Shown piece by piece: positions 1,716 to 57,705 of a stretch of 57,757 bases of DNA. Both the position numbers and the translations under genes were made by a program. The DNA comes from a bacterium. Its GTDB lineage: Bacteria > Bacteroidota > Rhodothermia > Balneolales > M1805. Where the stretch lies: assembly GCA_006226965.1 (NCBI GenBank), contig SBGQ01000065.1, forward strand, positions 1 through 57,757, read 5' to 3'. Under the pieces are notes generated by a model. It did no database searches. It was not told where the DNA came from and saw nothing but the letters and a program-made list of their open reading frames with translations. Position 1 is the first letter of the stretch. The number at the start of each line of letters is the position of its first letter.

Positions 1716-1868
1716 AGTTTTTTCAGAAACCCGTTTTAGTGCTTAGCGTTAATGGTTTCATAAAATCAACTTTGTTACTACCTAATTAATAATTTTTGAT
1801 TTAACTAAGCTCAATTTTGCCGATATTTACAAATCTGTGAATATGATGGTTGAGCTATAATCCTGTTG

Positions 1869-4800: not shown

Positions 4801-7800
4801 CCAATACATTTACAACAGGTACAAATGATGTATATATCGGCAATGATTTAACAATTCAGGCCGGCGCTGTCTGGGATCAAGATATTGCATCTGTATTGTT
4901 TTTTAACGGAACAACACTTCAAGAATTAAACTTATTAGAACCTACTTCTGTTTTTACGAATATTACATTTCAAAACAGCGGTGAAAAACGAAATGACAAT
5001 AATGCATTAAATGTAGATGGAGATTTAATAATCGAGTCGGGAAGTACATTTAATGCAGGAGCATTTGTAATAACAGTTGCCGGAGACTGGACAAACAATG
5101 GTTCATTTACACAAACAGGTTCAGTTCAGTTTGATGGTATTGCCCAAACTATTAACGCCTCGACTTTTAACAGGGTTTTGTTTTCAAATTCCGGTACTAA
5201 AACGCTGGGCGGCGGTATTACAGTTACGGATGATATTATAATCGATGCAACCGTAACATTAGATGTATCGGCATCAAATTATGCGATTACAGTAGGAGAT
5301 GATTTTACCAATAACGGGACATTTAACGCCCGAAACGGTCTTGTTACGTTTAATGGATTGACTGGGTTTCTAACTACTGGCGGAAGCAGTTTCTACACCG
5401 TAAATTTCAACAAAAATGCAGGCCAAATCATGAATTTGGCGGATAATTTGGATGTGAACAACAATTTGAGTGTTTCATCGGGAGAGGTTGAAATGGACGG
5501 CAACGATATTACTTTGTTTGGTTCATTAACCATTGCTTCCGGTGCTGTATTAGATCCGAATTCTACTGCTTCTGATATCACTTTTGACGGAACATCCGGT
5601 TCACATACCATCCAAACATCAGGGAATTTACTCCGAACGATAACCGTTAATGCTTCTGGCGCAAGTTATTCCTTGGCTGATGATTTAACATTGTATGCCA
5701 ATCATAGTTTTACGCTCACAAATGGTTCTTTCAGTTTAAATACAAATACGTTTTCCTTACAAGGCACGGGTGATGTAATAGTAAACGGCGGAACATTTGA
5801 TATTGATGAAAACGCCATACTTCAAATTCCAAACGGCAGAAGCATCACAAATAATGGCGGGGTTTTCAGAGTTGTCGGAACGGCAGGAAATCCAGCAAGA
5901 ATACAAAGAAACGGTGCAACAGGCGGATATACAATTACACAAACTTCCGGAACATTTCATGCTTTGTATTATGAAATATTCAATACTCAAACCACGGGTT
6001 TAACCATTTCCGGAGGCTCAATTGATGCTACAAACAATTTTAGCAACGGTACATTTTCGAGCGGCTCAGGTACTCAATACCTGAATGTGTCCGGCATCAC
6101 CATTACCGGAATAATTGCAGATAATGTCATTTTTGGTTCCGGCCCTACCTATAACGTTACAAGAACTTCCGGAACGGGTGTTATTACTTTTGAAGACGCA
6201 ACGGGAACACTTGCCGGAGAGGCATACGAAAACGATGGCGGTTCTTTAATTGACTGGACCTTTCCTGCGGGTATTTATTGGGATGGCGGCGGAGATGCCC
6301 TAACCTGGTCTGATGATTTAAACTGGAGCGGTAATACTGCGCCGACATCAGGAAGTAATGTATATCTAAACCATGATTTTGTTGGAACAACATATAGTGT
6401 TTCCATTGATGACTCTGATGCAGAAGCAAACAGAGTAATACTTGACGCACAAGGCGGTAATCCAATTACATTAACCATAACCTCAGGATTTGATTTAACG
6501 GTTACTACCAGTTTTCAAATTGGTGCTTCAACTACGGTTGTGTTAAACGATGCGTCATCCGTTCTTTCAATAGCTGAGTCGTTCCAGAACGCAGGAACTT
6601 TTACACATACTAACGGCTTACTTCGTTTTAACGGTAGTTCAGGGAGTCATTTATTAAACTTCGGCGGTAGTTCAGTCTATAATTTTGAGATGGATGCCAA
6701 TGGAACAACGTACACCTTAGCATCTGCACTAGATGTAAATAATGACATCACCTTAACCGATGGAACGCTTAATGTCTCAACCAGTAATTTTGCTCTTACC
6801 GTTGGCGGCGATTGGACAAACGTAGGATTGTCAACCTTTCAGGCACAATCTGGTACAGTAACTTTCGATTTGGGCGGAACCGGTACACAGACGATTTCCG
6901 GCGGACCGTTTTACAACTTAACACTAACGAACGGAACGGGTTCGGGAACAGCTACCAAGCAACTTACTGGAAACGTCGATATCAATAACACGGTTATTAT
7001 TAATGCGAATACCATTTTCGATGCGCAGACGAATAACTTATATGTAGGCGGAAACTGGACAAACAATTCTTCAACAGGTGCCCTTACACAATCCGGAACA
7101 GGGTCTGTAACGTTCGATGGAAGCGGAAATCAAACCATTGATAACGGAAGTTTTGCAACAACATTCAATAACCTGATAATTACTAATACGGGAACGGTAA
7201 CCTTAGCGGCAAACTCAAGTGTAAACGGTAACGCTCAAGTAAGTTTTAGTACGGGTACCTTTAATCTTTCAACATTTACATTAAACGGTGTAGGCGGCTC
7301 GAACTCATTTACGGTTTCAGACGGGTCTATAATTCAATTGTATGGAAGCAATTTTCCTTCAACTTTTGAAAGTATTGATTTAGCAGCAAACTCAACGGTT
7401 CAATATCGAGCAAACAGTAACCAAAACGTAGCTGCTGCAACGTATGGAAACTTACAATTCTTAAGAAGTAATGCAGGAAATCTTCAAACAAAAACAGCTT
7501 TAGGAGATATTTCTGTTGTAGGTGCACTTACAATTGTTGACACCGATACCGAATTTAACTTAAATGGAAACACACTCACCCTAACAGGAAATCTTTCGCT
7601 ACCAACGGGTGGACGTGCGATAGTTTGGGGCGGCGGAACAGTAGAGCAAAATAATACTGTCGATTTCAATTTTGATGCTGATATTACAGAGTGGCCAAGC
7701 TTAGTTTTAAGCGGTTCCGGTACAAAAGATTTATTTACCAATATTAATGTTACAGGTGATATTACCGTTCAAAATGGGGTGAATTTTAGAATGGACGCTT

Positions 7801-10800
7801 TTACTGTAACAGGAACAGGTGGCGTTCAGGATTTTACAGTTGATAATGGTGGTCAATTAAGGGTAAGAGTGCCGTCGGCTACATCAGTAGCGTTCCCTAC
7901 AAACTTTGATACCTACGGTTTGGGTGCTAATTCAACCGTGACAATCGACGCTTCAATACCTCAAACTATTTATACAGCTGTTACTTACGGAAATCTGACT
8001 TTGGGCGGAGGGTCAACCGCAACTATTGACGGAGACCTTTATGTAACCGGTAATTTTACATCTGGAACGGCAACATTTTTAGATAATAACTTCGATTTAT
8101 ACTTCTCGGGCAGCGATATCCAATTGAATAATTACACGGCATCAGTTGGTACAAAAGTAACTTTAGACGGAACGGCACAAACCTTAAGAGAATCGGTTAC
8201 AAACACATTTAACCTACAAGAAATCGTATTTGCAGGTTCCGGTACAAAAACACTAGCTGACAATGACACCTATGATGTAAACGGAAATATTACCGTAAAC
8301 CCTGGTGTAACGGTAGATTTTTCAAGAAATATGACGTTTTCCGGATCAACGTTTACCGATAACGGAACATTCAATCACACATTAAATACGATAACATTTG
8401 ACGGTGCGGCACAAAGCATAATTACCAATTCGAGTACAGCCTTTTATTCATTGGTATTTACAAACGGAACGGCTAAAACGTTTACTACACACGGAGCCGA
8501 TATTAATGGAAATATCACGATTGATATTGGCGCGAGTCTGAACTTGGGCTCATTTGATTATACATTGGGCTATACCGGAGCAAACTTTATTGTAAACGGA
8601 ACTCTAAATGCAGCATCAGCCAATTTAACATTAGATGGCGCGAATCCGGATTTACCGGCTGGTTTTACAGTTAATGATTTAACGCTTAGTACCACCGGTG
8701 ATGTTGATATGACCGGAAGTATAGATGTAAACGGCGATCTTACTATTGGTCAGCAATTGGATGTGAATAACGCAGCCTATACGATTAATATAGGTGGCGA
8801 TTTCATTAACAACGGGATTTTTAATGATTTTAATGGTGATATAACATTTGACGGTGCGAATGCCAGTGTTTCCATTCAATCAAATGGTGCTTCGTTTTAC
8901 AATGCAACCTTTTCGCCATCGGTAGGAACGGTTTATTCATTGACATCAGCATCCAATCAAATAGAAGCGGGTTTAACAATTGGAGCCAACACCAATCTGG
9001 ATTTAAATGGTAAGGCATTAACACTAGGTTCCAATATTGCCGCCGGAAAAACTGCTACTGTAAACGGAACGCTAACAATCGATGATAATTCAGTATTAAC
9101 GATTGATAACAACAATACAGCCTATTCAATTACGGTAAACGGAACCTTGAACATGGTTGGTTCGGCGTTGAATATTGCAACTCTTACCAGCATAAATCAA
9201 GCAAATACAAGAAGAACAGCGTTAACGGTATCAGCAACCGGAACTGTACATGCGAGATATTATTTAATAGAATATTTAGATAATAATGGATTGGTTTTAA
9301 CCGATGGGGCAACTGTTGACGGTACAAATAACTTTAGTGATGGTTCATGGACGAATATTGTTACAGCAACAGGTGGTCCATACTATTATTTACAGACAAA
9401 TTCGGTTCCGATTGGCGGCACTATTTCAAATGTAAGTTTCGGATTCTCTGGTACACCAATTCCCGCAACTCATTATAACGTTCAACGTGATCCGGCTGCC
9501 GGAACAACTATTACATTTGGAGGAACAATTTCAGGCACCTTGGGCGGTGAAGCTTATGAAGATGATAGCGGTTCTAAAATTACTTGGCCAGCAGCTTCAA
9601 GTGCCATTTGGACAGGTTCGTTCAATACGGATTGGAATCAGGCTGCAAACTGGAACACGCTTTCAGTTCCACTATCAACAACTGATGTAACCATTCCACT
9701 GGTAACGAATAACCCGAGAGTTACAACTGCAAATGCAACCTGTAAAGATTTAACGATTACAAACGGCGCATTAACACTAGAAAATGGATTCGATTTAGCC
9801 ATAACCGGAAACTTAGTAATCGGTACGAGCACAAATGCCGGGGCTTTAATTGTGGCTTCATCAACATCTGAAATTGATATTGCAGGAAGTTGGACAAAAG
9901 GAAGCAATGGTATTTTCACAAATGGTAGTTCAACCGTAACCTTTAACGCTTCGTCAGGTTCTGTAACGATAACACCTGGAACATCTGCCTTTAACGATGT
10001 CGTTTTTGACGGAGCGGCCACATTTATATTAGCCGGTACTATACTAGATTTTAACGGTGATATAACCATAAATAGCGGAGTTGTAAATCCATCAACAGGG
10101 AATTATACCATTACGCTAGCCGGAGATTTGAATAATGCGGGCGGTTCAATAAACAATGTAACAAACGGTTTAATAACACTCGATGGTGCCGCTCAGGCAA
10201 TAACAGGAGTCACAATAGACCAATTAACAGTTGCCGGTACTGGAAGTAAAACATTTAATGGTTCCAACACCATAAACGACAATTTAATTGTTTCTTCAAC
10301 ACTGGTTACTGCTGTTGGAGCAACCTTGGATATAAACGGAACGGTTACAATAAATACAGGCGGAACGTTTAATAATCTTGGCGGCGGAACACATACGGTT
10401 GCCGGTGCTTCTTGGTCGAATTCAGGAACCTACTCAGGAACAGGTACCATTAATTTTGACGGCGGAAATCAAACAATAAATGCATCTGCTTTTGCAGGGC
10501 TGGAGCTCTCCGGTACTGGTGTTAAAACATTGGGCGGCAACCTTACATTGTCGGGCGATTTAACTCTTAGAAGTACATTTACAAGATTAGAATTAGTTAC
10601 TTATACCCTTACACATTCAGGTTCCGGAACAATGACTGTTGAAGGGGCTCAGACCATTTATGTGAATGGTTCAAACAATTTTCCAAGTGGTTTTGCCAGT
10701 TATGTGTTGGATGCTACATCAAATGTATATTACAGAAGTACAAGTGGCCAGACAATTCGTGGAGGCATTTCATATGGAAACCTGCATTTAAATAATGCAA

Positions 10801-13800
10801 ATACAAAAACACTTGGTGGGAATATAATTGTACAAACCGATATTACTTTTAATGATGCCACATTAGATGTTTCTGTAAATAACTATTCCATTAATGTTGG
10901 CGATGACTGGAATAATCAAAGTACAGGTTCTTTTATTGCCCGTTTAGGTGATGTTACGTTTGATGGTTCGAACTCGGTTGATGTACAGGAAATAAACTCG
11001 TCCCTGTCAGGTACAAAATCATTTTATAAACTCACAGTAAACAAAACGAATGGTTCACTTCGTGTTGATGACCAAAACTTAACTGTTGCCGATAACCTTT
11101 CAATTATTGACGGAACATTTAACCCCAATAACTTACAGATAAATATCGGTGGTTCATTAGACAATACAGGCGGAGATTTTTCACAATCCGGAATCGTTGT
11201 TTTTACATCAACAAGCGGAGCAGAAAATATTAGAAGTAATGGTTCAAGTTTCCTTGATGTAACAATAAACGGTACAGGAACCATCTTTACGATTCAGGAT
11301 AATTTTACAGCGAACGGAAATTTCTTATTAACGGCTGGTACATTAGATGCAAACGGTAAAACAGTTACACTAGGGGATGGCGCAACAGATATTGTAACAA
11401 TTGACGGTACACTTGATATTGATGCAAATGCAATTTTGGCAATCGGAAATACTGTAAATATTACCGTGAACTCCGGCGGAACAATTCGTGCCGTTGGAAC
11501 CGCAGGAAATCCGGCGACTGTAACCCGCTCAATCACAGGTAACTATGCTTTTCTTGTAAATGGTACTATTCATGCCAATAACTATGTATTTGAGTATATG
11601 GATGCAAGCGGCATTCAAATCAGTAATTCGGGCACTGTTGATGCAACCAATAACTTTAGCAACGGTACATTCACAAACGGAGTGGCGAGTGGAACCTTTT
11701 TACGAATAGAAAACACCCAAACCTTAGCAATCGATAATATAAGTTTTCCTACTAATCCGGGTGGAGCGGCATCAAATGTTACAAAGGTATCTTCACTTTC
11801 CGGAGTAATAACTCTAACAAATGCATCTGGTGCCTTTTCCGGTGAAGTTTACGATGATGATCCGAACGATTTAATTGATTGGCCAACTCCTGTAATATTA
11901 ACATGGACGGGCGGAACAAGTACAAACTGGTTTACAGCTACTAACTGGTCGGCAAACTCTGGGCCTAATATTGTTCCCACCGGTGCTGAAGATGTTATTA
12001 TTGCTACAGCAACTAATCAACCAATTATCAATACTTCCGGTGCTATCACCAAAAATATAACAATCAATTCAGGTGCTGTTTTAACTATAAACACAGCTAA
12101 TGAAACAGGTAATGATTTTGAAATTCAGGGAAATTTAACCTTAAACGGTACATTGGCCGGAACCAGTAGCTCTGATACCATTTTAGTTGCAGGTAGTTGG
12201 ACACGTGGTGGTTCAGGAGTGTTTACTCCGGCATCGGGGACGGTGATTTTTAATGGTACATCTGGAGCGTATACCATTAGTAATGGCGGAACCGGATTCT
12301 ACAATTTTGCCGTAAATGCTACGGCTTCTTATACACTTGCATCTAATATGCTCATCTCAAATAATCTGAGCATTGTTTCAGGTACACTAGATGCTTCTGC
12401 TTCGAACTATTCGATTTCAGTTGGTAACACTTGGACAAATGCAGGAACATTTACTCCACGCTCAGGAACAGTAACATTTACTCGTGCAACGGCCGGAACA
12501 GTTAATGTAAATAACGGAAGTTCTGCATTTAATAACTTAACTATAAATGGCGGTGCATCAACTATTTTTACCCAGAATACCAATGGTTTGACCATCAACG
12601 GAAATTTAACAATTACGAATTCAACCTTAGATTTGAATAGTTTGAATTTGGTGATGGGCGACGGAACAGGCTCTGATATTTTAACCGTAAACGGTACGAT
12701 TGATATTGATGCAAACGCACAATTAAAAATGGGTGCAAGCTCTACTATTCAGGTTCAGAGTGGAGGGGTGTTTAGAGTTGTTGGTTCAGATGAATCTAAT
12801 ATTGCAACTATTACTAGGAATTCAACAGGTACATACACTTTTATAGCTTCTAGCGGATCAACAGTACATGCCCGTTATTATGCGTTAAGTTATATGGGTG
12901 CCAATGGAATACAAATTCAAAGTGGTGCCACAATAAACGCTGTTAACAATTTTTCTGACGGAACGTTTTCGAATGGAACGAGTGGCGGAAGGTATCTGGA
13001 AATCATTTCTTTAGGTACAAATCATATTGCATCAAATGTTACATTTAATTCCGGCCCGACAAAAAACGTGAGAGCTACAAGCGGAACCGGAAATTATATT
13101 GAGTTTGAAGATGCTACAGGTCTGCTTTCTGGTCCCGCTTATGAAGATGATGATGCTTCGGCAACTACAGGAGCCGTTCGTTGGTCTTCAACTTCAACAA
13201 TTTATACATGGACAGGTGCTTCCAATACAGATTGGAATACTTTAGCAAATTGGGATGACGGAATAGGAGTTCCTCTTTCTTTACCTGATGCAAGTATTGA
13301 TGTAGTAATTCCAAATGTGGCCAACGACCCGATAATTTCAGCCGCTGATGCAAATGCAAACAATCTAACTATTCAGTCGGGTGGTGTGTTAGTAATTAAT
13401 TCAAACAGAAGTTTAACCTTGGCCTCAAGTTTTACAAATGGTGGTACACTAACCATTTCCAATGGCTCAACATCAACTTTATCTGTTGGTAATAACTATT
13501 CGAATTCCGGAACAGTGACATTTGGAAACGCATCAACAGTAGAGTTTACCGCTGCCACGGGTATTAAGTCCTTAGCATTTGGCGGATCATCACTAAACAA
13601 TCTAACTCTAAACGGCGCTGCGACATTTAACCTGACATCAAACTTAGATGTAAATGGAAATTTGACTATTTCCGCCGGTGTTTTAGACGTAACAACAAGT
13701 AACTATCAAATTAATGTTGCCGGAAATTGGACAAACTCAGCAACGTTTACATCTCGCTCCGGCCGTGTCATTTTTGATGGATCTGGTGCGCAAAATATTG

Positions 13801-15743
13801 ATGGCGGTGGTTTAACGAGTGATAAACGTTTCTATAATCTTCGTATAGCAAAATCGAATACAGCAACGTTTACTTCAGATATATATGTACTGAGTAGTTT
13901 AGAGTTAATCAGCGGAAGTTTAAATCTTGGCACAGGATCGATTGAAACAACAGGAACATGGAGTAATACAAACGTTACTATTGTTCCTTCAACGAGTACA
14001 GTAGTCTTTTCCGGTTCTAGTTCAACATCAATAGCACCAAACACCCAGTCTTTCAACAACGTAACGGTTAATAAAACGGGTGGAAACCAAGTTAGTTTAA
14101 CAGGTAATACTACGATTAATGGGGTGTTAACCGTAACCGCAGGAACGTTTTACCTGAATGGTCGCAGACTCAATTACGGAGACGGTGCAGATGCAATGAG
14201 TATAACCGGAACCTTATATATTGACGCCGGAGCGATTCTTGGCATGCACCAAAATGCATCAGCTGTGGTAAATTCAGGAGGTGTGTTACGAGTAACAGGT
14301 TCAAATGCATCAAATGTGGCAACAGTAACTCGTCAGGCAACAACAGCGGGTTGGCAAATGACTGTAAACGGTGAGTTAAGAGCACAATTTGCCTTATTCG
14401 AATATTCGGGTGGAGATGGTATTACACTTGGTGCAACAGCTACACTAAACGCAACTCAAAACCTAAGCAATACAACTTTCCAAAATGGAATCGGGGCTTC
14501 GTATGTAACGAATAACGCACCGATTACGAGTACCTTAAGTCAGGTAACAATAAATGCCGGCCCGACTTACAATTTTTCAGCAACAGACGGAGCTATTAGT
14601 TTTGATAATTATACAGGAACACTTGCAGGCAGCCGATTTGAAAATGACGGCGGCGCAGATCAAGGATACCTGTTATGGGCGTTTAATGGTTCGCAAAGTA
14701 TAGCCGGAATAGGTACATATAACTTTGGAAACGAAGTTGTAGTAAATGTTACCGGAATTGCGGGTTTAACCGACTTAGAGGTTGATTTGCGAAACGAGCT
14801 TTATGAATCAGACTACAATGCATTGCCAAGATATTACAGACTCATTTATACAGGTGGAACTGCTACTGGTGATATTACATTTGGATATTCTGAAAGCGAA
14901 TTAGGTACAATTAATGAATCAAATTTAAGAGTCTGGGTCCATAAAGGAGGATTAGTTTGGGCAAATCTTGGTGGTGTTGTTGATGAAGTAAACAATACAA
15001 TTACCGTTTCCGGATATACACTTGGCGAAGGTACAGCAGCGGAAACCATGAATAAAGCCAATCCGAATAACCCCAATGTTTTAGATGGAAGCGAAGACTT
15101 TTTGTTATCTGATGAAAATAGCCAAGCGTCATTACCGGTTGAGCTTACTCGTTTTGAAGTTATTGATGAACATGAGCCGGGTTTAACAAAACTTGAGTGG
15201 GAAACAGCTACCGAAACCGAAAACTACGGTTTCTATTTAAGCAGAACATACATCGGCTCGGATAATGTTGATTTGGAAAAACCAACAATGCCTAGAGATA
15301 CAACTTGGATTGAATTAGCATTTGTTGAAGGCGCAGGAAATTCCGTTGAAAAACAAGTGTATTCATTCGAAGATGGCGATGTTCAAGAAGCAGGAAAGTA
15401 CCTCTATCGTTTAATTCAAATGGATTTTGACGGAAAAACGACAGCTTATGACCCGATTGAGTTTTTATATACCGGTCCTGAGACATTCAGCCTAAAGAAT
15501 AATTATCCCAACCCGTTTAATCCTGTTACGGTTATTCCTTACGATGTAGCTGAAAGAACGGCTGTTCGAATCGAAATCTTTAATGTATTGGGTCAGCGAG
15601 TAAGTACACTCGTTAATGAAGTTAAAAACCCGGGTACGTATAAAATCGAGTTCAGAGCAAGCGGTTATGCTAGCGGCGTGTATATCGTTAGATATTCAGC
15701 ACAGGGTAGGTCGTTCGTTAAAAAAATGCTGCTCGTTAAATAG
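1869..15743 (+). CDS. Giant repetitive T9SS-secreted surface protein (4,624 aa)
   Basis: Probably a cell-surface adhesin or matrix protein exported by the Sec and type IX systems. The start is ATG at 1869, preceded in frame by a TTG; residues 1-24 are a signal peptide ending in GLAQ. The body is Gly/Thr/Asn/Ser-rich beta-strand repeat, with about twenty units built around GDWTNNGTF, VTFDG, a YNLTI-type strand and VNGNLTI. It is divided by five W-x(n)-NW modules (about 1980, 6300, 9600, 11900 and 13200). Each block ends with an ATNNFSNGTF-like element (about 6025, 9320, 11640, 12945, 14455) and a YEDDGG...W linker. A non-repeat domain (about residues 4290-4540) precedes the type A T9SS sorting domain, which has NNYPNPFNP, a VLGQRVSTLV segment and the terminal KKMLLVK. 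The frame is intact over 13.9 kb. No enzyme motif was recognised. Confidence 0.9.
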   Translation: MKIFNQIAIAFILVLVGVSTGLAQTGYYRSVVAGSGNWSNTASWEYSADNISFGVITTEGYPGELGIPTSVLVRDGDTIVLEVSPANAIGALTVGEGASGVLSFGDDATVRTLTISNSVTIASGASASSASSAVHVLTIGDDLTVNGTFDGFTSGTQAINVNLTGAASIISGSGTIEFNTVTFNHTGTTTVSTNFSVQNQFSITNTGTVNLGTSTISGTGATDTFSMSTGTLVIGGTNTFPGGFETITLTGGTVHYAGLAQTVAHQESDGGPIAYNNIQISESVAAANAKTLGGNLDINGSLTLETGVDFNLGTSTINIAGSWVQNGTINYTVGTSHVVFDGAGFQQINNPINADPIEFYTFTASGGGIISIGAASTTYIHEDFSLTSNTGITSASNVYVRGDYSVASGSSYQQTAGVIVFDGSGAQNIDVNNSTFINTYFDNGAPSQKTLSGNLSLSGLFYVYNDADVTDAGIGQAHTLVNIRIDGAVNFQGTVMASGQIYDNIDNAIDFGTADLIMNAGQINTNNALTVHGDVTINSGTFNILSGASLTGNTQSFTVNSGAVLDIDANDGFPTGFSSYSLSPTSTVSYTLNGAQVVRGGLSYGELELGGGGTKTLDGAVTVSYFVDLNNAVTADFSTFTHTIRDRIYNNSGSTFTSSGTVNLFISDGANYELIDEGTYTFSNLVIDTDALTGSYIYDISADLTVNGNLTIQNSGGDAINIAVIDMNTYTYSNDGGDVLTVGDHLEIRTAGASSLESTVNSFLSNSFSSQSIVHYNGTTDQNVTNVISPYGALHFSGSGNRIATGALDVNGLISDRGGAFLFDLGTFTHNFAGDFSFDGDNTTIGTSTVIFDGGSQLISDVGNPGTLFFYNVTFAGTGTKTLDDNYNIEGTVTINPSITVDASSNDVDIYLAGDWTNNGTFTQLTGEFYFDGTGGNQNISNAVNSFGNVFVQKPSGVQQITLLNDLVISGSLQVNASNTFTTGTNDVYIGNDLTIQAGAVWDQDIASVLFFNGTTLQELNLLEPTSVFTNITFQNSGEKRNDNNALNVDGDLIIESGSTFNAGAFVITVAGDWTNNGSFTQTGSVQFDGIAQTINASTFNRVLFSNSGTKTLGGGITVTDDIIIDATVTLDVSASNYAITVGDDFTNNGTFNARNGLVTFNGLTGFLTTGGSSFYTVNFNKNAGQIMNLADNLDVNNNLSVSSGEVEMDGNDITLFGSLTIASGAVLDPNSTASDITFDGTSGSHTIQTSGNLLRTITVNASGASYSLADDLTLYANHSFTLTNGSFSLNTNTFSLQGTGDVIVNGGTFDIDENAILQIPNGRSITNNGGVFRVVGTAGNPARIQRNGATGGYTITQTSGTFHALYYEIFNTQTTGLTISGGSIDATNNFSNGTFSSGSGTQYLNVSGITITGIIADNVIFGSGPTYNVTRTSGTGVITFEDATGTLAGEAYENDGGSLIDWTFPAGIYWDGGGDALTWSDDLNWSGNTAPTSGSNVYLNHDFVGTTYSVSIDDSDAEANRVILDAQGGNPITLTITSGFDLTVTTSFQIGASTTVVLNDASSVLSIAESFQNAGTFTHTNGLLRFNGSSGSHLLNFGGSSVYNFEMDANGTTYTLASALDVNNDITLTDGTLNVSTSNFALTVGGDWTNVGLSTFQAQSGTVTFDLGGTGTQTISGGPFYNLTLTNGTGSGTATKQLTGNVDINNTVIINANTIFDAQTNNLYVGGNWTNNSSTGALTQSGTGSVTFDGSGNQTIDNGSFATTFNNLIITNTGTVTLAANSSVNGNAQVSFSTGTFNLSTFTLNGVGGSNSFTVSDGSIIQLYGSNFPSTFESIDLAANSTVQYRANSNQNVAAATYGNLQFLRSNAGNLQTKTALGDISVVGALTIVDTDTEFNLNGNTLTLTGNLSLPTGGRAIVWGGGTVEQNNTVDFNFDADITEWPSLVLSGSGTKDLFTNINVTGDITVQNGVNFRMDAFTVTGTGGVQDFTVDNGGQLRVRVPSATSVAFPTNFDTYGLGANSTVTIDASIPQTIYTAVTYGNLTLGGGSTATIDGDLYVTGNFTSGTATFLDNNFDLYFSGSDIQLNNYTASVGTKVTLDGTAQTLRESVTNTFNLQEIVFAGSGTKTLADNDTYDVNGNITVNPGVTVDFSRNMTFSGSTFTDNGTFNHTLNTITFDGAAQSIITNSSTAFYSLVFTNGTAKTFTTHGADINGNITIDIGASLNLGSFDYTLGYTGANFIVNGTLNAASANLTLDGANPDLPAGFTVNDLTLSTTGDVDMTGSIDVNGDLTIGQQLDVNNAAYTINIGGDFINNGIFNDFNGDITFDGANASVSIQSNGASFYNATFSPSVGTVYSLTSASNQIEAGLTIGANTNLDLNGKALTLGSNIAAGKTATVNGTLTIDDNSVLTIDNNNTAYSITVNGTLNMVGSALNIATLTSINQANTRRTALTVSATGTVHARYYLIEYLDNNGLVLTDGATVDGTNNFSDGSWTNIVTATGGPYYYLQTNSVPIGGTISNVSFGFSGTPIPATHYNVQRDPAAGTTITFGGTISGTLGGEAYEDDSGSKITWPAASSAIWTGSFNTDWNQAANWNTLSVPLSTTDVTIPLVTNNPRVTTANATCKDLTITNGALTLENGFDLAITGNLVIGTSTNAGALIVASSTSEIDIAGSWTKGSNGIFTNGSSTVTFNASSGSVTITPGTSAFNDVVFDGAATFILAGTILDFNGDITINSGVVNPSTGNYTITLAGDLNNAGGSINNVTNGLITLDGAAQAITGVTIDQLTVAGTGSKTFNGSNTINDNLIVSSTLVTAVGATLDINGTVTINTGGTFNNLGGGTHTVAGASWSNSGTYSGTGTINFDGGNQTINASAFAGLELSGTGVKTLGGNLTLSGDLTLRSTFTRLELVTYTLTHSGSGTMTVEGAQTIYVNGSNNFPSGFASYVLDATSNVYYRSTSGQTIRGGISYGNLHLNNANTKTLGGNIIVQTDITFNDATLDVSVNNYSINVGDDWNNQSTGSFIARLGDVTFDGSNSVDVQEINSSLSGTKSFYKLTVNKTNGSLRVDDQNLTVADNLSIIDGTFNPNNLQINIGGSLDNTGGDFSQSGIVVFTSTSGAENIRSNGSSFLDVTINGTGTIFTIQDNFTANGNFLLTAGTLDANGKTVTLGDGATDIVTIDGTLDIDANAILAIGNTVNITVNSGGTIRAVGTAGNPATVTRSITGNYAFLVNGTIHANNYVFEYMDASGIQISNSGTVDATNNFSNGTFTNGVASGTFLRIENTQTLAIDNISFPTNPGGAASNVTKVSSLSGVITLTNASGAFSGEVYDDDPNDLIDWPTPVILTWTGGTSTNWFTATNWSANSGPNIVPTGAEDVIIATATNQPIINTSGAITKNITINSGAVLTINTANETGNDFEIQGNLTLNGTLAGTSSSDTILVAGSWTRGGSGVFTPASGTVIFNGTSGAYTISNGGTGFYNFAVNATASYTLASNMLISNNLSIVSGTLDASASNYSISVGNTWTNAGTFTPRSGTVTFTRATAGTVNVNNGSSAFNNLTINGGASTIFTQNTNGLTINGNLTITNSTLDLNSLNLVMGDGTGSDILTVNGTIDIDANAQLKMGASSTIQVQSGGVFRVVGSDESNIATITRNSTGTYTFIASSGSTVHARYYALSYMGANGIQIQSGATINAVNNFSDGTFSNGTSGGRYLEIISLGTNHIASNVTFNSGPTKNVRATSGTGNYIEFEDATGLLSGPAYEDDDASATTGAVRWSSTSTIYTWTGASNTDWNTLANWDDGIGVPLSLPDASIDVVIPNVANDPIISAADANANNLTIQSGGVLVINSNRSLTLASSFTNGGTLTISNGSTSTLSVGNNYSNSGTVTFGNASTVEFTAATGIKSLAFGGSSLNNLTLNGAATFNLTSNLDVNGNLTISAGVLDVTTSNYQINVAGNWTNSATFTSRSGRVIFDGSGAQNIDGGGLTSDKRFYNLRIAKSNTATFTSDIYVLSSLELISGSLNLGTGSIETTGTWSNTNVTIVPSTSTVVFSGSSSTSIAPNTQSFNNVTVNKTGGNQVSLTGNTTINGVLTVTAGTFYLNGRRLNYGDGADAMSITGTLYIDAGAILGMHQNASAVVNSGGVLRVTGSNASNVATVTRQATTAGWQMTVNGELRAQFALFEYSGGDGITLGATATLNATQNLSNTTFQNGIGASYVTNNAPITSTLSQVTINAGPTYNFSATDGAISFDNYTGTLAGSRFENDGGADQGYLLWAFNGSQSIAGIGTYNFGNEVVVNVTGIAGLTDLEVDLRNELYESDYNALPRYYRLIYTGGTATGDITFGYSESELGTINESNLRVWVHKGGLVWANLGGVVDEVNNTITVSGYTLGEGTAAETMNKANPNNPNVLDGSEDFLLSDENSQASLPVELTRFEVIDEHEPGLTKLEWETATETENYGFYLSRTYIGSDNVDLEKPTMPRDTTWIELAFVEGAGNSVEKQVYSFEDGDVQEAGKYLYRLIQMDFDGKTTAYDPIEFLYTGPETFSLKNNYPNPFNPVTVIPYDVAERTAVRIEIFNVLGQRVSTLVNEVKNPGTYKIEFRASGYASGVYIVRYSAQGRSFVKKMLLVK

Positions 15744-31359: not shown

Positions 31360-33927
31360 CTATCGTTGTACCGTTCCGCTACTGATTGTATTTCCAAAGA
31401 AAATAGCATTCATCAGTACTTTGTTTGGGCCGTACCAAAACGCGCGGAAGTTTGGATTATCAAGCAAAGCAATTACTTTACCGCGGCCTTTGCCAAAAAC
31501 AGTAACGGCAGCGGTATTGCCTAAACGAGCCAAATTAGGTTTGGAAATGTATCCGCTTAATAATGGTTTTGCCGTGTACATGAACGGGTTCGCAAACGGA
31601 TTTGAAGCCGGTTTCATGAACAAGGTGTGGTCTCGAAAAACGGGCATTTTATCTGAGTTGAGTCCGTAAGCTAAGGGGTGTGTTAAATCTACCTTTGTTT
31701 CAAAAATTGAACCGCCGATAACTTGAGCACCTGTTAAGTTCCCGTAATCTGAATACGCTTGTGATTTGGATGTATCTATACCGGATGATTTTTCAAATTT
31801 AATTGAAGCTAAGCCGACACTATTCAACCAACGCACGGCTTGGGTCATCGCAACCAAAGTTCCACCTTTAGATACCCAGTCTTTTATAGCTTCTTCACCC
31901 GATTTACCCAATTCACGATATCCGCCGCCTGCCATTAAAATGACAGTATATTTGCTTAAGTCAGCTGAGCCGACACGATCTACATCCATCAATACAGTTG
32001 GAATTTCCATTCGAGTATCTAAAAGATGCCATAATTCACCTGCATCGTTAGAGTTTACACCTTGCCCCGTTAGTAAAAGTACAGTTGGTTTTTGAACGGG
32101 TTCATGCGTTCTTGAACCGAAATCAACACCTGATGGAGTTAAGCCGCTTTCTAAACCGTAAATAGTAACCAAGTTTTTCTCGGCAACGGTTTTTATGGTT
32201 GCATGAATTAACTCTTCAGAAACGTCTTGCCCGCCAAAACTAATGAGTATAGTTCCAACCGGAAATTTGCGCGCCGAACCATTCACAACCCCTGAAAATG
32301 GCTCTTGACTCACTTTTACACGAATTCCTTTTTGTTGGATTTGAAGAATGGCGCGATGTGCAAAATAGTCGTTGGTTTCAAAAACATAGCCTACCATTTT
32401 AGCACTTTTTAAAACGCCGCCGATTGGTTTTTGAACATCACCAAAACTTAAACTGCGCATTTCCTTCGTGTCGATTTCCTCGTAAGGTAAATTGAACGCT
32501 AATGGCATGGTCCAGGCAGAAACATCATAAAATAAACTATCCTGAAACTGAGTGTTCTTTTCGAAAATAGCTCGAATTAATCGGTATTGAGGCTGTTCAG
32601 TAAGAACAAAAAAGGCAGTTCCGGCAGCAAAATATTTTCCGTTAACGGTTACGTCTTTAGTGATTCCTTGTACTTCAATTTTGTGGTGTTTCAGCATTTC
32701 AACCAAAGCAAAACCTCGGTAAGCATCTTTAGAATCGCCGAATAGATATCCTTTTGTTGAGGACTTCCGTGATTCCGCTAAGGCGTCTTTATAAAAATCT
32801 CGCTGATAATTCAGGATTTCTGTACTGTTTTCATGCACCGCTTTCAAGGTTGAAAAAACGGCTTCAAACTGATTCTTAATAGTGAAAGAAAAGGCTAAAT
32901 CGCCGTTTATACTTTCTTGAACGTGTCCGCGAGAGCTCGCTTGCTCGAATAGAATTCCGATTGAACCGTTTACATCGGGATAAGTGGAACCTTTGCCGTA
33001 ATAGAAATCATCGAAACTTTCTTCGGAATAATAAAGCGCATTTCGGGAGTCGAATGCTTTTGCATGATACGTCGCAATTTTAGCAGTTAACTCTTGGTTT
33101 TTTTTAGGCGTGATAGGATTCGTGCGTGATTGAATTCCCGGCTGAAAAAAGAACGTCGCATCGGTTCCCATTTCATGATGGTCGGTTAATACATTCGGTT
33201 TCCATTCATGGAATAAGGCAATTCTACCCACCATTTCTACATGTTGAACAGGTAACCAATCACGGTTCAAATCGAACCAATAATGATTGGTTCTTCCATA
33301 AGGCCATGCTTCGTTATGTTCACGAGATTGTCTGTCGGCTACTAATTGCATGCCTCTGTTTGTGTTTGCCCAGTGAGCAAAACGAGCTAAGCCATCCGGA
33401 TTGAAAGAGGGGTCGAATAGGATAACGGTGTTTTTTAAAGCTTCTAAAATCTCTGGTTCATTAGAAGCAGCCAGTCGATAAGCAGCTAACAAACCGGCAT
33501 TTGCACCACTTGGTTCATTACCGTGAACACTAAAGCCCATATAGATTACAGCAGGCATAGTTGCAGTGTTTAAATCACCGGAAACGGAGGGATTTGTAAG
33601 AGAAACATGTGCTTTTTTTATGTCTTCAATTTGAGCTTGATTTTCCGGAGAGGTAATCGTTAAAGCTAGTAAAGGACGTTTTTCATAGGTTCTGCCATAC
33701 TCTTTTATACTTACTCTGTCTGAAGCCTTAGCAAGTGCATACATATATTCCACAATTTGTCCGTGACGAGCATGCCATTCACCAACCTCAAATCCAAGAA
33801 TGTCAGATGGCTTCGGAACTTCCTTATTATATTGGGAGTTATCCAAATAGTAATCCAGTGTTACCTGTGCTTGAGATGTAATCGTACACACGAACACCAT
33901 CAAATAAATAAATACGACTTTAACCAT
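31360..33927 (-). CDS. Secreted M14 family zinc carboxypeptidase
   Basis: An 855-residue exported peptidase with a signal peptide (1-21, ending SQAQ). The M14 domain covers about residues 45-380: the zinc pair is in HGNEPSG (His135, Glu138), the third ligand is in TDHHEMG (His250/251), the substrate-binding stretch FDLNRDW is present, and the general base is probably the Glu of ILFEQASS. The C-terminal third has a glutamine-amidotransferase-like fold (VLLLTGQGV; YTVILMAGGGYRELG; GGTLVAMTQA). This combination is common in large M14 peptidases of Bacteroidota. It probably trims peptides in the periplasm or outside the cell. It diverges from the cytochrome operon across 187 bp. Confidence 0.92.
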   Translation of the reverse strand: MVKVVFIYLMVFVCTITSQAQVTLDYYLDNSQYNKEVPKPSDILGFEVGEWHARHGQIVEYMYALAKASDRVSIKEYGRTYEKRPLLALTITSPENQAQIEDIKKAHVSLTNPSVSGDLNTATMPAVIYMGFSVHGNEPSGANAGLLAAYRLAASNEPEILEALKNTVILFDPSFNPDGLARFAHWANTNRGMQLVADRQSREHNEAWPYGRTNHYWFDLNRDWLPVQHVEMVGRIALFHEWKPNVLTDHHEMGTDATFFFQPGIQSRTNPITPKKNQELTAKIATYHAKAFDSRNALYYSEESFDDFYYGKGSTYPDVNGSIGILFEQASSRGHVQESINGDLAFSFTIKNQFEAVFSTLKAVHENSTEILNYQRDFYKDALAESRKSSTKGYLFGDSKDAYRGFALVEMLKHHKIEVQGITKDVTVNGKYFAAGTAFFVLTEQPQYRLIRAIFEKNTQFQDSLFYDVSAWTMPLAFNLPYEEIDTKEMRSLSFGDVQKPIGGVLKSAKMVGYVFETNDYFAHRAILQIQQKGIRVKVSQEPFSGVVNGSARKFPVGTILISFGGQDVSEELIHATIKTVAEKNLVTIYGLESGLTPSGVDFGSRTHEPVQKPTVLLLTGQGVNSNDAGELWHLLDTRMEIPTVLMDVDRVGSADLSKYTVILMAGGGYRELGKSGEEAIKDWVSKGGTLVAMTQAVRWLNSVGLASIKFEKSSGIDTSKSQAYSDYGNLTGAQVIGGSIFETKVDLTHPLAYGLNSDKMPVFRDHTLFMKPASNPFANPFMYTAKPLLSGYISKPNLARLGNTAAVTVFGKGRGKVIALLDNPNFRAFWYGPNKVLMNAIFFGNTISSGTVQR

Positions 33928-34114: not shown

Positions 34115-34495
34115 ATGAATAGAAAAATAACCGTCATTAGTCTGTCAGCATTATTTATTTTCGCATCTTGCGCAGATAATACAACCGATCCAAACGTATC
34201 AGAGGAATCATTTTTTGCGACTGAGGTGCAACCCATATTAACCACGCATTGCGTTTCATGCCATGGTGGTACAAATGGAGTAACACTTAGTTCTTATGCC
34301 TCAATCATGAGTTCAACAGGTTCTGATCTAGGTAAAACCGTTATTGCAGGCGACGCTGATAATAGTCCGTTAGTACAAGTTTTAGAAGGAACAGCAAACG
34401 GTATTGTTAGAATGCCACAAGGAGGAGCTGCACTTAGTGAATCACAAATCAATAGTATTCGAGCATGGATTAATGATGGAGCCAAGAATGAATAA
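34115..34495 (+). CDS. Mono-heme cytochrome c lipoprotein
   Basis: 126 residues. The signal peptide ends in a lipobox (IFASC, lipidated Cys19). Residues 33-126 form a small class I cytochrome c domain of the PSCyt1-like type: EVQPILTTHCVSCHGG with heme-binding Cys46, Cys49 and His50, a likely distal Met100 in RMPQGG, and the closing helix INSIRAWINDGA. It should be a lipid-anchored electron carrier on the periplasmic or outer-membrane leaflet. Its last 8 bases overlap the start of the YceI gene, so the two are translationally coupled. First gene of a three-gene operon. Confidence 0.9.
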   Translation: MNRKITVISLSALFIFASCADNTTDPNVSEESFFATEVQPILTTHCVSCHGGTNGVTLSSYASIMSSTGSDLGKTVIAGDADNSPLVQVLEGTANGIVRMPQGGAALSESQINSIRAWINDGAKNE

Positions 34496-35030
34496 AATTC
34501 TTGTTTTATGTTTGATTGTTTGTTCAGGGATTTCAGAATGGGCTGTGGCTCAGACTTACAAAACAGAAAAAGGTGAAGTTGAGTTTTTTTCCGAAGCATC
34601 TGTGGAGAGCTTTTCCGGAAAATCCAATAAAGTAATCGGTCAGATTAATTTAGCCGATAGTACGGTAGATTTTTATGTAGATACGAATACCCTGGAAACC
34701 GGAATTAAACTTCGTGATGAGCATATGAGAGAAAACCATTTGAATACGGAGGAATTCCCATTCATTGAGTTTTTTGGAAAGCTTAATGGATTTGACCCCG
34801 CTGTAAAAGATACACAACGAGTATCTGCTGTTGGCAATTTCACATTACGCGGAGTTACAAAAGAAATAAAAGTTGATGCAAAAGCCATTATGAAAGGCTA
34901 TAACTTATATGTTTTTGCAAACTGGAAGATTAAACTTCAGGACTATAACATACCCAGACCGGAGTTCCTCTTTTTAAAATTGAGTGAAGAACAGAAAATA
35001 TCTTTAAAAGTTAATTTGATACGAAAATGA
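34488..35030 (+). CDS. YceI family periplasmic lipid-binding protein
   Basis: The start is placed at ATG 34488 (180 aa) because it opens directly on a signal peptide (MNKILVLCLIVCSGISEWAV, cleaved after AQ). An upstream in-frame ATG at 34404 would run inside the cytochrome gene and bury the signal. The mature part is a lipocalin-like YceI barrel with VEFFSEASVESFSGKS, MRENHLNTEEFPFIEF and FTLRGVTKEIKVDA. YceI proteins bind polyisoprenoid or quinone-like lipids in the periplasm. It overlaps the cytochrome gene by 8 bases and the DUF5777 gene by 4 (ATGA), so the order is translationally coupled. Confidence 0.92.
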   Translation: MNKILVLCLIVCSGISEWAVAQTYKTEKGEVEFFSEASVESFSGKSNKVIGQINLADSTVDFYVDTNTLETGIKLRDEHMRENHLNTEEFPFIEFFGKLNGFDPAVKDTQRVSAVGNFTLRGVTKEIKVDAKAIMKGYNLYVFANWKIKLQDYNIPRPEFLFLKLSEEQKISLKVNLIRK

Positions 35031-35881
35031 AAAAATTACTTGCCATTGTTATTCTAAGCATGTTCGCGGGTTCATCGTTTGCGCAAATGAAACGAGAACG
35101 AGTTTCAGCAGACGGACCTGTAGATGCAGTATTTAAAGCTCAACGTTTAATTACCCTCAGTACTACTAAAAATGTGAATCCGGGAACCATTCAATTTATG
35201 ATTCAACATAGTTTTGGACCGATTGAATCCCTTACAAACTCGCAAGAATTATGGGGTATTGACGGCGCCGCAAATATTCGTTTTTCACTTGATTGGGGAA
35301 TTTCAGAAAATCTTTCGTTGGGTTTTGGAAGAACGAAATACGAAAAAGCTTACGATTTTCGTGGAAAATACACACTGGCTAAACAAACACGTTCTGGCTC
35401 GGTTCCTCTGGGTGTTGCAATCGATGCCACATTGGGAATAAGAACGGATGATGCTCCGGGTTATTCATTTAATGATAGGTTGTTTGGTGGTGTTTCCATC
35501 CCTGTCTCCAGAAAAGTAAACGAGGAGTTTAGTATGTTGATTTCTCCTTCGATAGCCTTTTTTCAAAAAACAGATTTTATTTCCCCGTTTTATTCATTCA
35601 AGGATATTTATTACGGAGTAGGCTTGGGCGCGCGATATAAAGTTTCAAAACGAATGGTTTTAATGGGCGAATTTTCTCCGGTTTATTCTGATGGTTTACG
35701 CACAAACTTTGGAATGGGTCTCGAAATGGAAACGGGAAGCCATGTGTTTCAATTATTTGTAACAACTTCACAGTTTTATACTGAACCATATATGATGCGT
35801 TACGCAACCAATTTAGACGGCGGGGTTTTAGAGCATTTACGAATTGGATTTAACGTAAATCGTCTGTTTTGGTACGATTGA
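35027..35881 (+). CDS. DUF5777 family outer-membrane beta-barrel protein
   Basis: 284 residues with a signal peptide (MKKLLAIVILSMFAGSSFAQ). The DUF5777 pattern is visible: LITLSTTKNVNPGTIQFMIQHSFG, then WGIDGAANIRFSLDWGISENLSLGFGRTKYEKAYD, and repeated amphipathic strands to the C-terminus (GVGLGARYKVSKR; VFQLFVTTSQF; LRIGFNVNRLFWYD). The family is a predicted outer-membrane barrel of unknown function. The ATGA overlap with YceI and the upstream cytochrome suggest the three act together. No internal heme motif is present. Confidence 0.85.
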   Translation: MKKLLAIVILSMFAGSSFAQMKRERVSADGPVDAVFKAQRLITLSTTKNVNPGTIQFMIQHSFGPIESLTNSQELWGIDGAANIRFSLDWGISENLSLGFGRTKYEKAYDFRGKYTLAKQTRSGSVPLGVAIDATLGIRTDDAPGYSFNDRLFGGVSIPVSRKVNEEFSMLISPSIAFFQKTDFISPFYSFKDIYYGVGLGARYKVSKRMVLMGEFSPVYSDGLRTNFGMGLEMETGSHVFQLFVTTSQFYTEPYMMRYATNLDGGVLEHLRIGFNVNRLFWYD

Positions 35882-35996
35882 TTGTCACAATCCCGTGCAT
35901 ACGGGATTCTCCAATTATTTAGGAGTTATACCAAGTCATTAATCGTTAACTACTTCGTAAGTAACAAGAGATACCCTCATTCGAGGGTATGACACA
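35881..35996 (+). repeat. Hairpin-rich intergenic repeat, copy A (116 bp)
   Basis: The copy starts ATTGTCA and ends TATGACACA. It contains two strong dyads, AATCCCGT-GCAT-ACGGGATT and ATACCCTC-ATTC-GAGGGTAT, with a weaker TACTT-CGT-AAGTA between them. It shares almost all of its sequence with copy B. The GTCA/TGAC ends and paired hairpins resemble REP/BIME-type elements. The start of the copy overlaps the last codon of the barrel gene by one base. No coding potential. Confidence 0.9.
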
Positions 35997-36022
35997 ATCT
36001 AGCACGAGTATATAGATACTTC

Positions 36023-36143
36023 ATTGTCAATCCCGTGCATACGGGATTCTACAATTATTTAGGAGTTATACCAAGTCATTAATCATTAATCGTTAACTAC
36101 TTCGTAAGTAACAAGAGATACCCTCATTCGAGGGTATGACACA
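36023..36143 (+). repeat. Hairpin-rich intergenic repeat, copy B (121 bp)
   Basis: This is a direct copy of the element at 35881-35996. I count three differences: CA is absent after ATTGTCA, one C-to-A change occurs after the first hairpin, and a 7-bp CATTAAT duplication sits in the middle. The copies are separated by 26 bp of unrelated sequence. Together with the terminator that follows, they fill the 320-bp gap between the DUF5777 and M28 genes. Confidence 0.9.
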
Positions 36144-36201: not shown

Positions 36202-37872
36202 TTATCTCGGATTAGCTTTAGTCTTGTTGATGAACTCTTGGTTATCAACAACCGGACGGCCATTCATATTCGCTAATTCAATCGCATAAGCATAAAGTAA
36301 TTGCGCTCTTTTAGCCATTGCATTAAATGCGATTTTTTCAATGGAGTCACTTGGGCGGTGATAATCTTCATGTACACCGTTAAAGAAGAATGAAAACGGT
36401 ACGCCTAAACGTCCGAAGTTCCAATGGTCAGAACGACGATAAAATTGATTAGGATCGTTTAAATCATTGTATTTCATATCCAATTTAATCTTCACAGTTT
36501 TGTTGTTGGCAACTTGTAATAAGCTATCCATAGTAGAAGAAATAATACTTGCACCAATAATGTAGATGTAATCACCATCATTAGTTTTTTGGTAATCGGT
36601 ATCAATACGACCAATCATATCCGCATTAACGTTAGCAATAGTGCTTTCAATTGGCCAAGTTGGATGGTCTGAATAATAACGAGAGCCTAACAATCCTTTT
36701 TCTTCACCGGTAACGTGTAAAATCATTACAGAACGTTTTGGACCAACTCCGGCTGCTTTTGCTTTTGTTAAAGCAGTTGCAACACCTAATAAACCTACAG
36801 TACCTGAACCATCATCGTCAGCTCCATTGTAGATTTTATCTCCTTTATCGTCAGGATTTCCGATACCAACGTGGTCGTAGTGAGAGCTCATAACAACAAG
36901 TTCGTCTTTTTTAACCGGGTCAGAACCGTCTAAAATCGCTACGATATTGTAAGACATAACCTTAACAGGAGTAACATCGGTTTTAATGCTCAACTGATAT
37001 GGTGTAGAAGTAGCTTTAAACGTTTTAGCTGATTTTGCAATTACATCATACTCAGCTTTTAAAGCGATGGTATCAGCTAAGCCTAACATCATTGCAGCAG
37101 TATTGGGGCGAACTAATCCATAAGAGAATCCTAAATCGTTGCCTTCATCCAAATAGGCTAAACGAAGACCGCCGGTTTTACCCAAATTATCTTTAGAAGT
37201 AGCTGCATTGCGGTCGAAACGTCCGTCTGTAGATGGAATTAATAAAACACCTTTAGCACCGTGAGCCATAACAACTTCGCGGAAACGAACATTATTTGTA
37301 ATGCCTTGTGAGTAAACGGTATCTTCGCCAACTACCGTTGGGATATCAAGAAACGCCATTACCCATTTGTCTTTTACATCAACGCCTTCAAAAGGATTAA
37401 TACCTTTTTTCTCGTCAGTTACACCAAATCCGGCAAATACTACATCAGCAGTAAAGGAAACGTTTCCGCCATAGAGTTGGATAAAATCTGGAGTTGACTC
37501 AGGAGATAACACAGAGGTTAACACCTCGGTTGTGTCTTTATCCGTCTTTTTAAAAACGGTATAAGTAGAGCCATTTAATTTTGTGGAGTTAAGTTCGATG
37601 GGCTGAAGGAAAGATCCATCAGGCATACCGCCACGTAATCCCAATTTCTTGTATTGACTGATTAAATAATCAGCTGCTTTTTCTTGTCCTTTAGAACCGG
37701 TGTCGCGACCTTCCAAAGAATCGTGAGCAACAACAGTTAAATGCTTAAGTACATAAGCAGAGTCTATAACAGATGCAAAGCTAAGTGCATCAGCAGGCAT
37801 TTTTTCAGCTTCTTTTGAAGAAGAACATGCCAATACCCCGCCAGCTAACAGGGGGAGTAACCATTTTTTCAT
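36202..37872 (-). CDS. M28 family zinc peptidase, lipoprotein
   Basis: 556 residues. The lipobox GGVLACSS lipidates Cys16, so the enzyme is membrane-anchored. A protease-associated (PA) insert lies around residues 130-270 (GVTDEKKGINPFEGVDVKDKWVMAFLD; VMAHGAKGVLLIPS). The M28 catalytic part follows with all five zinc-ligand motifs: SSHYDHVG, NGADDDGSGTVG, VTGEEKGLLGSRYY (which also holds the general base), NADMIGRID and DYHRPSDS. It is an aminopeptidase or carboxypeptidase acting in the periplasm or on the outer membrane. It is the last gene of the long minus-strand block and ends at a terminator. Confidence 0.94.
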   Translation of the reverse strand: MKKWLLPLLAGGVLACSSSKEAEKMPADALSFASVIDSAYVLKHLTVVAHDSLEGRDTGSKGQEKAADYLISQYKKLGLRGGMPDGSFLQPIELNSTKLNGSTYTVFKKTDKDTTEVLTSVLSPESTPDFIQLYGGNVSFTADVVFAGFGVTDEKKGINPFEGVDVKDKWVMAFLDIPTVVGEDTVYSQGITNNVRFREVVMAHGAKGVLLIPSTDGRFDRNAATSKDNLGKTGGLRLAYLDEGNDLGFSYGLVRPNTAAMMLGLADTIALKAEYDVIAKSAKTFKATSTPYQLSIKTDVTPVKVMSYNIVAILDGSDPVKKDELVVMSSHYDHVGIGNPDDKGDKIYNGADDDGSGTVGLLGVATALTKAKAAGVGPKRSVMILHVTGEEKGLLGSRYYSDHPTWPIESTIANVNADMIGRIDTDYQKTNDGDYIYIIGASIISSTMDSLLQVANNKTVKIKLDMKYNDLNDPNQFYRRSDHWNFGRLGVPFSFFFNGVHEDYHRPSDSIEKIAFNAMAKRAQLLYAYAIELANMNGRPVVDNQEFINKTKANPR

Positions 37873-57162: not shown

Positions 57163-57705
57163 TTACGCTGGCACTGCTACTTGTTCAATAAGTTCAGCTG
57201 TAATTTCTAATTTCACTTCGTCAGCTACTACAACGCCGCCGGCTTCGGTTAAAGCGCTCCAGTTTAAGCCAAAATCTTTACGGTTTATTTTACCGCTGAT
57301 TTCAAAACCTGCAACATTAAAGTCACCGCCGAAACCTTTTACCGTTCCGTTATAAATCACATCAAGAATTACCATTTTGGTAGTTCCACGGATGGTTAAA
57401 TCGCCGGATAATAAATAGTGATCATCGGTTTTTTTGCTGAACGTAACAGATTTGAACGTCAATTTTGGGTGGTTTTCAGCATCGAAGAAATCCGCTGATT
57501 TTAAGTGACCGTCACGTTGAGCTTGTTTGGTGTTGATGCTGTTAACATCAGCTTCGAAATACACTTTAGCGTTGGTAAAATCATTTCCTTCTGTTTGAAC
57601 ATATCCTGAGAAGGTGTCGAAATGACCGGTTACAGTAGAAACAACTAAGTGTTTTACTTTGAATTTAATTTCTGAGTGAGCAGTGTCAATATTCCAAGTT
57701 TTCAT
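57163..57705 (-). CDS. YceI family protein, cytoplasmic form
   Basis: 180 residues without a signal peptide (it starts MKTWNIDTAHSEIKF), so it is predicted cytoplasmic, unlike the exported YceI at 34488. The YceI features are complete: DTAHSEIKFKVKHLVVSTVTGHFDTFSG, SINTKQAQRDGHLKSADFFDAENHPKLTF, LTIRGTTKMVILDV, and RKDFGLNWSALTEAGGVVVADEVKL. It is a lipocalin-like barrel that binds isoprenoid-type lipids in characterised relatives. The gene stands alone with its own terminator. The upstream region holds a palindrome (57729-57740), so the promoter runs to the window edge. Confidence 0.94.
   Translation of the reverse strand: MKTWNIDTAHSEIKFKVKHLVVSTVTGHFDTFSGYVQTEGNDFTNAKVYFEADVNSINTKQAQRDGHLKSADFFDAENHPKLTFKSVTFSKKTDDHYLLSGDLTIRGTTKMVILDVIYNGTVKGFGGDFNVAGFEISGKINRKDFGLNWSALTEAGGVVVADEVKLEITAELIEQVAVPA

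Follow-up and report, generated by a model that had tools for sequence, protein, structure and literature searches.

Introduction

Among described systems that pair a barrel with a cytochrome, the MtrCAB-type conduit places a 26-strand barrel around a decaheme cytochrome, and Cyc2, an iron oxidase of iron-oxidising bacteria, is a mono-heme cytochrome fused to a porin (PMC8406198). YceI proteins have also been described together with cytochromes. BcnA, a YceI lipocalin with an envelope role, is encoded with the membrane cytochrome b561 LcoA, a pair for which no outer-membrane barrel is described (PMC9113575), and Cbp2D of Cellvibrio combines YceI-like and cytochrome c domains in one protein, of which the cytochrome domain reduces a lytic polysaccharide monooxygenase (LPMO) (PMC12542752). 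Here we examine a three-gene locus in a 57,757-nucleotide stretch of DNA (contig SBGQ01000065.1 of GenBank assembly GCA_006226965.1; hereafter the window) from a bacterium of the Balneolales, in the phylum Bacteroidota. The locus encodes a c-type cytochrome, a YceI-family protein, and a beta-barrel of the Pfam family DUF5777. We propose that DUF5777 loci encode an outer-membrane redox module in which a small barrel would have a carrier docked at its periplasmic mouth, an arrangement like that of Cyc2, and we assign this reading a probability of roughly 55%.

The window locus resembles MtrCAB, MtoAB, and PioAB in that a barrel is encoded beside a cytochrome, but those systems pair a multiheme cytochrome with a barrel of about 26 strands, whereas the window has a 12-strand barrel and a single heme motif. 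The likeness to Cyc2, which is one of description and not of sequence comparison, is that a mono-heme c-type cytochrome lies N-terminal to a small outer-membrane barrel on the periplasmic side, a domain order shared by the fused DUF5777 forms described below. However, Cyc2 has 16 strands and a CXXCH motif, whereas DUF5777 barrels have 12 predicted strands and their own Pfam family, the fused forms, a minority, carry CX4CH, and YceI usually accompanies the barrel; in the window, cytochrome and barrel occupy separate genes, and AlphaFold2 predicts 12 strands rather than 16. The original prediction had likened the locus to a simple porin-cytochrome conduit, which stands for Cyc2 as a working resemblance rather than as membership and fails for the Mtr type, given 12 strands and one heme. 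The YceI gene in the window adjoins a cytochrome c lipoprotein and not a cytochrome b561, in contrast to BcnA-LcoA, and DUF5777 modules in general join a c-type cytochrome, Rieske protein, or possibly cupredoxin to a conserved barrel. Cbp2D, which is proposed to deliver electrons outside the cell (PMC12542752), differs in being one large cellulose-binding protein without a barrel. By analogy, the precedents of Cyc2 and Cbp2D lend support to a carrier-barrel redox module with YceI as an accessory.

Results

Three overlapping genes form a self-contained operon

The open reading frames (ORFs) place the trio on the + strand, with the cytochrome at 34115-34495, YceI at 34488-35030, and the DUF5777 barrel at 35027-35881. 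The features of the locus are as follows.

34115..34495, + strand: mono-heme c-type cytochrome, predicted lipoprotein, 126 aa (CVSCH, RMP Met, Pfam and PDB matches)
34169..34171, + strand: lipobox cysteine Cys19 (LFIFAS-C), read by eye; the family has lipobox-like sites
34250..34264, + strand: heme-binding motif CVSCH, read directly
34412..34414, + strand: putative axial Met100 (RMP), downstream of CVSCH; Met-Pro or Met-Gly is common in neighbouring cytochromes
34488..34495, + strand: overlap of the cytochrome and YceI genes, 8 bp (ORF coordinates)
34488..35030, + strand: YceI-family lipocalin-like exported protein, 180 aa (Pfam PF04264, PDB matches)
35027..35030, + strand: overlap of the YceI and DUF5777 genes, 4 bp, ATGA (ORF coordinates)
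35027..35881, + strand: DUF5777 outer-membrane beta-barrel, 284 aa, 12 predicted strands (Pfam PF19089, AlphaFold2, Foldseek)

The overlaps of 8 bp and 4 bp agree exactly with those originally predicted, and both YceI (34488) and DUF5777 (35027) begin with ATG. The upstream (31360-33927) and downstream (36202-37872) neighbours lie on the opposite strand, and the ORF list of the window holds no further same-strand gene adjoining the trio; with both flanking genes on the other strand, we regard the trio as a self-contained operon. The genome contains one DUF5777 gene, five YceI matches, and 12 matches to the CBB3 cytochrome profile when weak ones are counted.

The cytochrome narrowly misses the cut-off of the Pfam family Cytochrome_CBB3 (26 bits, cut-off 27) and matches cytochrome c6 in the PDB (phmmer, E 3e-5). 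It has the hallmarks of a class I c-type cytochrome, namely a CXXCH motif, a downstream Met ligand, and a related sequence. Among the 169 cytochromes with a heme motif that neighbour DUF5777, 166 have Met-Pro or Met-Gly after the motif and 151 have a lipobox-like site. The single CVSCH motif, RMP, the c6 match, and the lipobox thus bear out the expectation of a mono-heme cytochrome that is predicted to be lipid-anchored.

Just past the operon, at 35888-36143, a repeat of about 115 bp occurs twice, with a spacing of 140-147; 29 matches at 70-100% identity are scattered through the genome, which marks it as an interspersed repeat with small palindromes. Elsewhere in the window, positions 1866-15743 form one uninterrupted open frame of 4625 codons.

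Redox carriers and YceI are linked to DUF5777

DUF5777 is present in 116 of 297 genomes drawn from across the phylum of the window and in 144 of 244 genomes of its class, as well as in Marinimicrobia (loci L142 and L152). Cultured strains with the trio include Tenacibaculum discolor DSM 18842, Polaribacter sp. Hel1_85, and Cytophaga aurantiaca DSM 3654. We read the surroundings of 214 distinct DUF5777 genes and scored partners within 2.5 kb, counting over the 199 loci whose flanks reach 1 kb or more on both sides; the sampled genomes are related, and the counts are therefore not independent events. A heme cytochrome, Rieske protein, or fused cytochrome was found in 186/199 loci and YceI in 174/199. 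The remaining loci had a cupredoxin-type match only (5/199), a cytochrome-like ORF without a heme motif (2/199), or no recognised redox neighbour (6/199). For two other outer-membrane barrel families of the same phylum, either partner occurred in 0/60 loci, whereas equal-sized DUF5777 loci had a carrier in 28/30, YceI in 25/30, and both partners in 25/30. Linkage of cytochrome, YceI, and DUF5777 is far above chance. The check proposed at the outset was whether the three genes stay together across genomes, and these counts indicate that they do.

Spacing is close as well: for 173 of 214 DUF5777 genes, the nearest YceI or cytochrome gene on the same strand either overlaps or is no more than 30 bp away. 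The tight coupling seen in the window is thus a family trait. Separately, a small OB-fold protein (tRNA_anti-like, PF12869) occurs in 26 of the first 113 loci (range L002-L116), often between cytochrome and YceI or beside DUF5777.

YceI is an accessory of the module

YceI is missing from 25 of the 199 loci, and it is thus an accessory of the module. All 25 nevertheless retain a carrier, which is a cytochrome in 24 (20 adjacent, four fused) and in one a cupredoxin-type match only, a soft call. In the window, YceI matches Pfam PF04264 (E 3e-19, 70 bits against a cut-off of 23.7, profile positions 5-149 of 150) and the YceI lipocalins 1y0g, 5ixg, 1wub, and 7bwl in the PDB. The longest ORF across it begins with TTG at 34404, and the start at 34488 yields a proper signal peptide. 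A second YceI gene in the window (57163-57705) is canonical, with 166 bits to Pfam; the two share 27% identity across 88 residues, which places the operon YceI in a divergent subfamily.

The strongest rival explanation is an envelope antioxidant module like BcnA-LcoA. By that analogy, a reduced prenyl lipid of the menaquinol type, ferried by YceI to the outer membrane, would quench lipid peroxyl radicals there. The cytochrome or Rieske protein would re-reduce or re-oxidise the lipid, and the barrel would serve as a docking site. In Burkholderia, the linked genes of BcnA and LcoA guard the envelope against such radicals, and a prenyl lipid or ubiquinone-8 is frequently present in YceI structures (PMC9113575); the adjacency of YceI to DUF5777 in most loci is consistent with the same role. 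However, YceI is lost where the carrier remains, the reverse of what is expected if YceI were the effector, and the partner of BcnA is a membrane b-type rather than a c-type cytochrome. Variants of the module linked to NrfD or to secreted proteins (see below) also point to respiration or surface electron transfer, and we consider the antioxidant explanation unlikely.

Unrelated carriers replace one another beside the barrel

The carriers beside DUF5777 are of several kinds: CX2CH cytochromes, CX4CH cytochromes, Rieske proteins (Pfam PF00355), and a few cupredoxins (PF00127) with a tail for the type IX secretion system (T9SS). The cytochrome profile was built from small cytochromes only, and cupredoxin counts are soft, as that profile also catches T9SS tails. 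When carrier labels were mapped on a FastTree phylogeny of 202 DUF5777 domains, the Rieske label required five changes, at least four of them forced by well-supported branches, and the CX4CH label at least 15, likewise forced by such branches. The conserved partner of the barrel is therefore a redox carrier as such and not one particular protein. The exchange of non-homologous carriers next to a constant barrel is the best indication that electron transfer is what the partner is needed for.

Cytochrome and barrel are fused in some genomes

In six genomes from three families of the window's class (L113, L227-L231), a single ORF of 407-440 aa encodes, in order, a signal peptide, a CX4CH cytochrome domain that also has Met-Pro, and a complete DUF5777 domain confirmed with Pfam. 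The fused proteins form one group on the DUF5777 tree, and YceI was not found beside the four fused loci that have full flanks. By Rosetta-stone reasoning, such fusions suggest that cytochrome and barrel sit together, and as the N terminus of the barrel is periplasmic by standard topology, the fused cytochrome would lie at the periplasmic mouth. Judged from sequence, contact between cytochrome and barrel in an outer-membrane redox module is well supported, indirectly so for the unfused form in the window, and carrier swapping together with the fusions supports a redox role for the DUF5777 barrel. The original prediction had the three proteins in one complex. The fusions favour the cytochrome-barrel pair within that complex, but a fixed trio is not supported, given the loci that lack YceI, flanked fused loci included. 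As one functional unit with redox content, the locus is upheld by linkage, carrier swapping, and fusions.

Other long frames were rejected as fusions. In L232 (487 aa), considered as a YceI fusion, the extra N-terminal part looks like out-of-gene reading and has no CXXCH, and the long DUF5777 frames of L126, L233, and L234 owe their length to sequence that stays open ahead of the true start, across the YceI gene.

The predicted barrel is small and has no evident cofactor site

The barrel of the window matches Pfam PF19089 over its full length (E 8e-56, 189 bits against a cut-off of 23.1, profile positions 1-247 of 247). An AlphaFold2 model from 67 sequences has 12 strands (pLDDT 90.7, pTM 0.84) and a confident non-strand segment ahead of strand 1, at about residues 31-53, which could be a plug. 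The nearest structures by Foldseek were NanC (TM 0.52 on query, 0.70 on target), FapF, and KdgM, a fold-level likeness only (TM about 0.5 on query, identity about 6-10%). These are small channel or secretion barrels, and the model suggests the same fold class for DUF5777; NanC and KdgM, the closest solved channel folds, are without a known redox partner. A search of PDB sequences with the DUF5777 profile returned nothing useful, and a search of a viral fold library with the barrel returned generic barrels only.

The inward or lipid-facing side of strand residues was judged from the parity of positions and the alternation of hydrophobic and polar columns rather than from coordinates. By parity, conserved Arg, Lys, Asp, Glu, and Gln are frequent at inward-facing positions. 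No conserved His/Met/Cys cluster resembling a cofactor site is evident in the strands. A shared pair of nearly invariant histidines, His61 and His239, was considered as a metal or heme site and rejected, as both positions have lipid-side parity; the strand map has His61 in the upper part of strand 1 and His239 in the periplasmic turn that leads into strand 11.

The polar interior and the Foldseek matches bear on a second rival. In it, the barrel would be a dedicated channel that takes up or exports a particular substrate, such as an acidic solute or a metal ion, and this substrate would undergo a redox change at the periplasmic mouth. The module would then be a transporter with an attached reductase or oxidase and not an energy-conserving route. 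CusB-like efflux genes lie near DUF5777 in L055 and L093, as such a role might lead one to expect. However, the structural likeness stays at fold level, with about 10% identity, and no substrate gene is recurrently linked across loci, which leaves this explanation quite improbable.

As no conserved cofactor site is evident in the strands, it is not obvious how electrons would cross the barrel, and the model makes it unlikely that 12 strands enclose a cytochrome as MtrB encloses MtrA. Together, these two points make an Mtr-type conduit with the cytochrome inside unlikely, and the originally predicted passage of electrons through the barrel is likewise improbable.

Some modules lie in wider redox gene clusters

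In five genomes (L085, L088, L092, L093, L116), Fe-S and NrfD genes come after those for the cytochrome and DUF5777; these clusters include a second small cytochrome, and YceI is absent. Upstream, three of them encode a lipoprotein that bears a single heme-like motif; the one scanned with Pfam matched EB_dh. A hexaheme lipoprotein lies near one cluster. NrfD proteins are membrane subunits that interact with quinone, and the clusters therefore look respiratory, which suggests a possible respiratory version of the module. In loci L249-L253, from five genomes, the genes for cytochrome, DUF5777, Fe-S protein, NrfD, and a second cytochrome form a conserved cluster, with a hexaheme lipoprotein in one.

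In some loci, T9SS-tailed cupredoxin, DOMON-like, or CX2CH proteins are encoded on the same strand within 2.5 kb of DUF5777, and these are candidate redox partners outside the cell. Such surface-partner loci number about 16 of 214. L097, L101, L102, and L105 each encode, beside the module, a T9SS-tailed protein of about 545 aa whose single CX2CH falls within a Pfam Temptin_C region. Neither NrfD-type nor T9SS-type neighbours occur beside the window operon.

Where T9SS-type neighbours occur, candidate redox partners are encoded for either side of the membrane; this and the hexaheme lipoprotein are what a third rival would predict: a true transmembrane conduit, a small counterpart of MtrCAB, in which electrons cross the barrel by a bound cofactor to extracellular acceptors. 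However, 12 strands give no room for an internal cytochrome and conserved cofactor ligands are not visible in the barrel, and we regard such a conduit as very unlikely.

Discussion

Based on the linkage, the exchange of carriers, and the fusions, we favour the outer-membrane redox module with a carrier at the barrel mouth. DUF5777 would form a small 12-strand barrel that is almost always paired with a one-electron carrier. In the window this is probably a lipid-anchored cytochrome c; other loci use a Rieske protein, a cytochrome fused to the barrel, or perhaps a cupredoxin. The carrier would dock at the periplasmic mouth, also in the unfused form, and may trade electrons with a partner at or across the outer membrane, either a small solute in the pore or a surface redox protein. 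As an accessory, YceI may bring a prenyl-lipid or quinone-type ligand that charges or discharges the carrier. The route from quinone through cytochrome to barrel in the original prediction is kept as a hypothesis.

Several observations weigh against this proposal. Besides the missing cofactor cluster and the minority standing of surface-partner loci, some DUF5777 loci have no recognised redox neighbour, and fusion is limited to one group in one class, with CX4CH rather than the CX2CH of the window.

The function of the barrel was originally said to be undescribed, and our literature search agrees, with no mention of DUF5777 or of the trio in the literature covered; most subscription papers and preprints lay outside it, and an earlier notice is possible. 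More tentatively, DUF5777 modules may be an unrecognised, phylum-wide outer-membrane electron-transfer machine of Bacteroidota and allies, Marinimicrobia among them, unrelated to MtrCAB or Cyc2. Such a machine would combine a minimal barrel with interchangeable carriers (cytochrome, Rieske protein, possibly cupredoxin), and in some lineages might link to NrfD-type quinol oxidation or to T9SS-exported surface redox proteins.

With DUF5777 tied to a redox carrier, many genes that lack an assigned function become testable. Should electrons reach or cross the outer membrane here, surface electron exchange would be common in a phylum known mainly for polymer degradation, and the module would be a candidate route for feeding electrons to secreted copper or heme enzymes.
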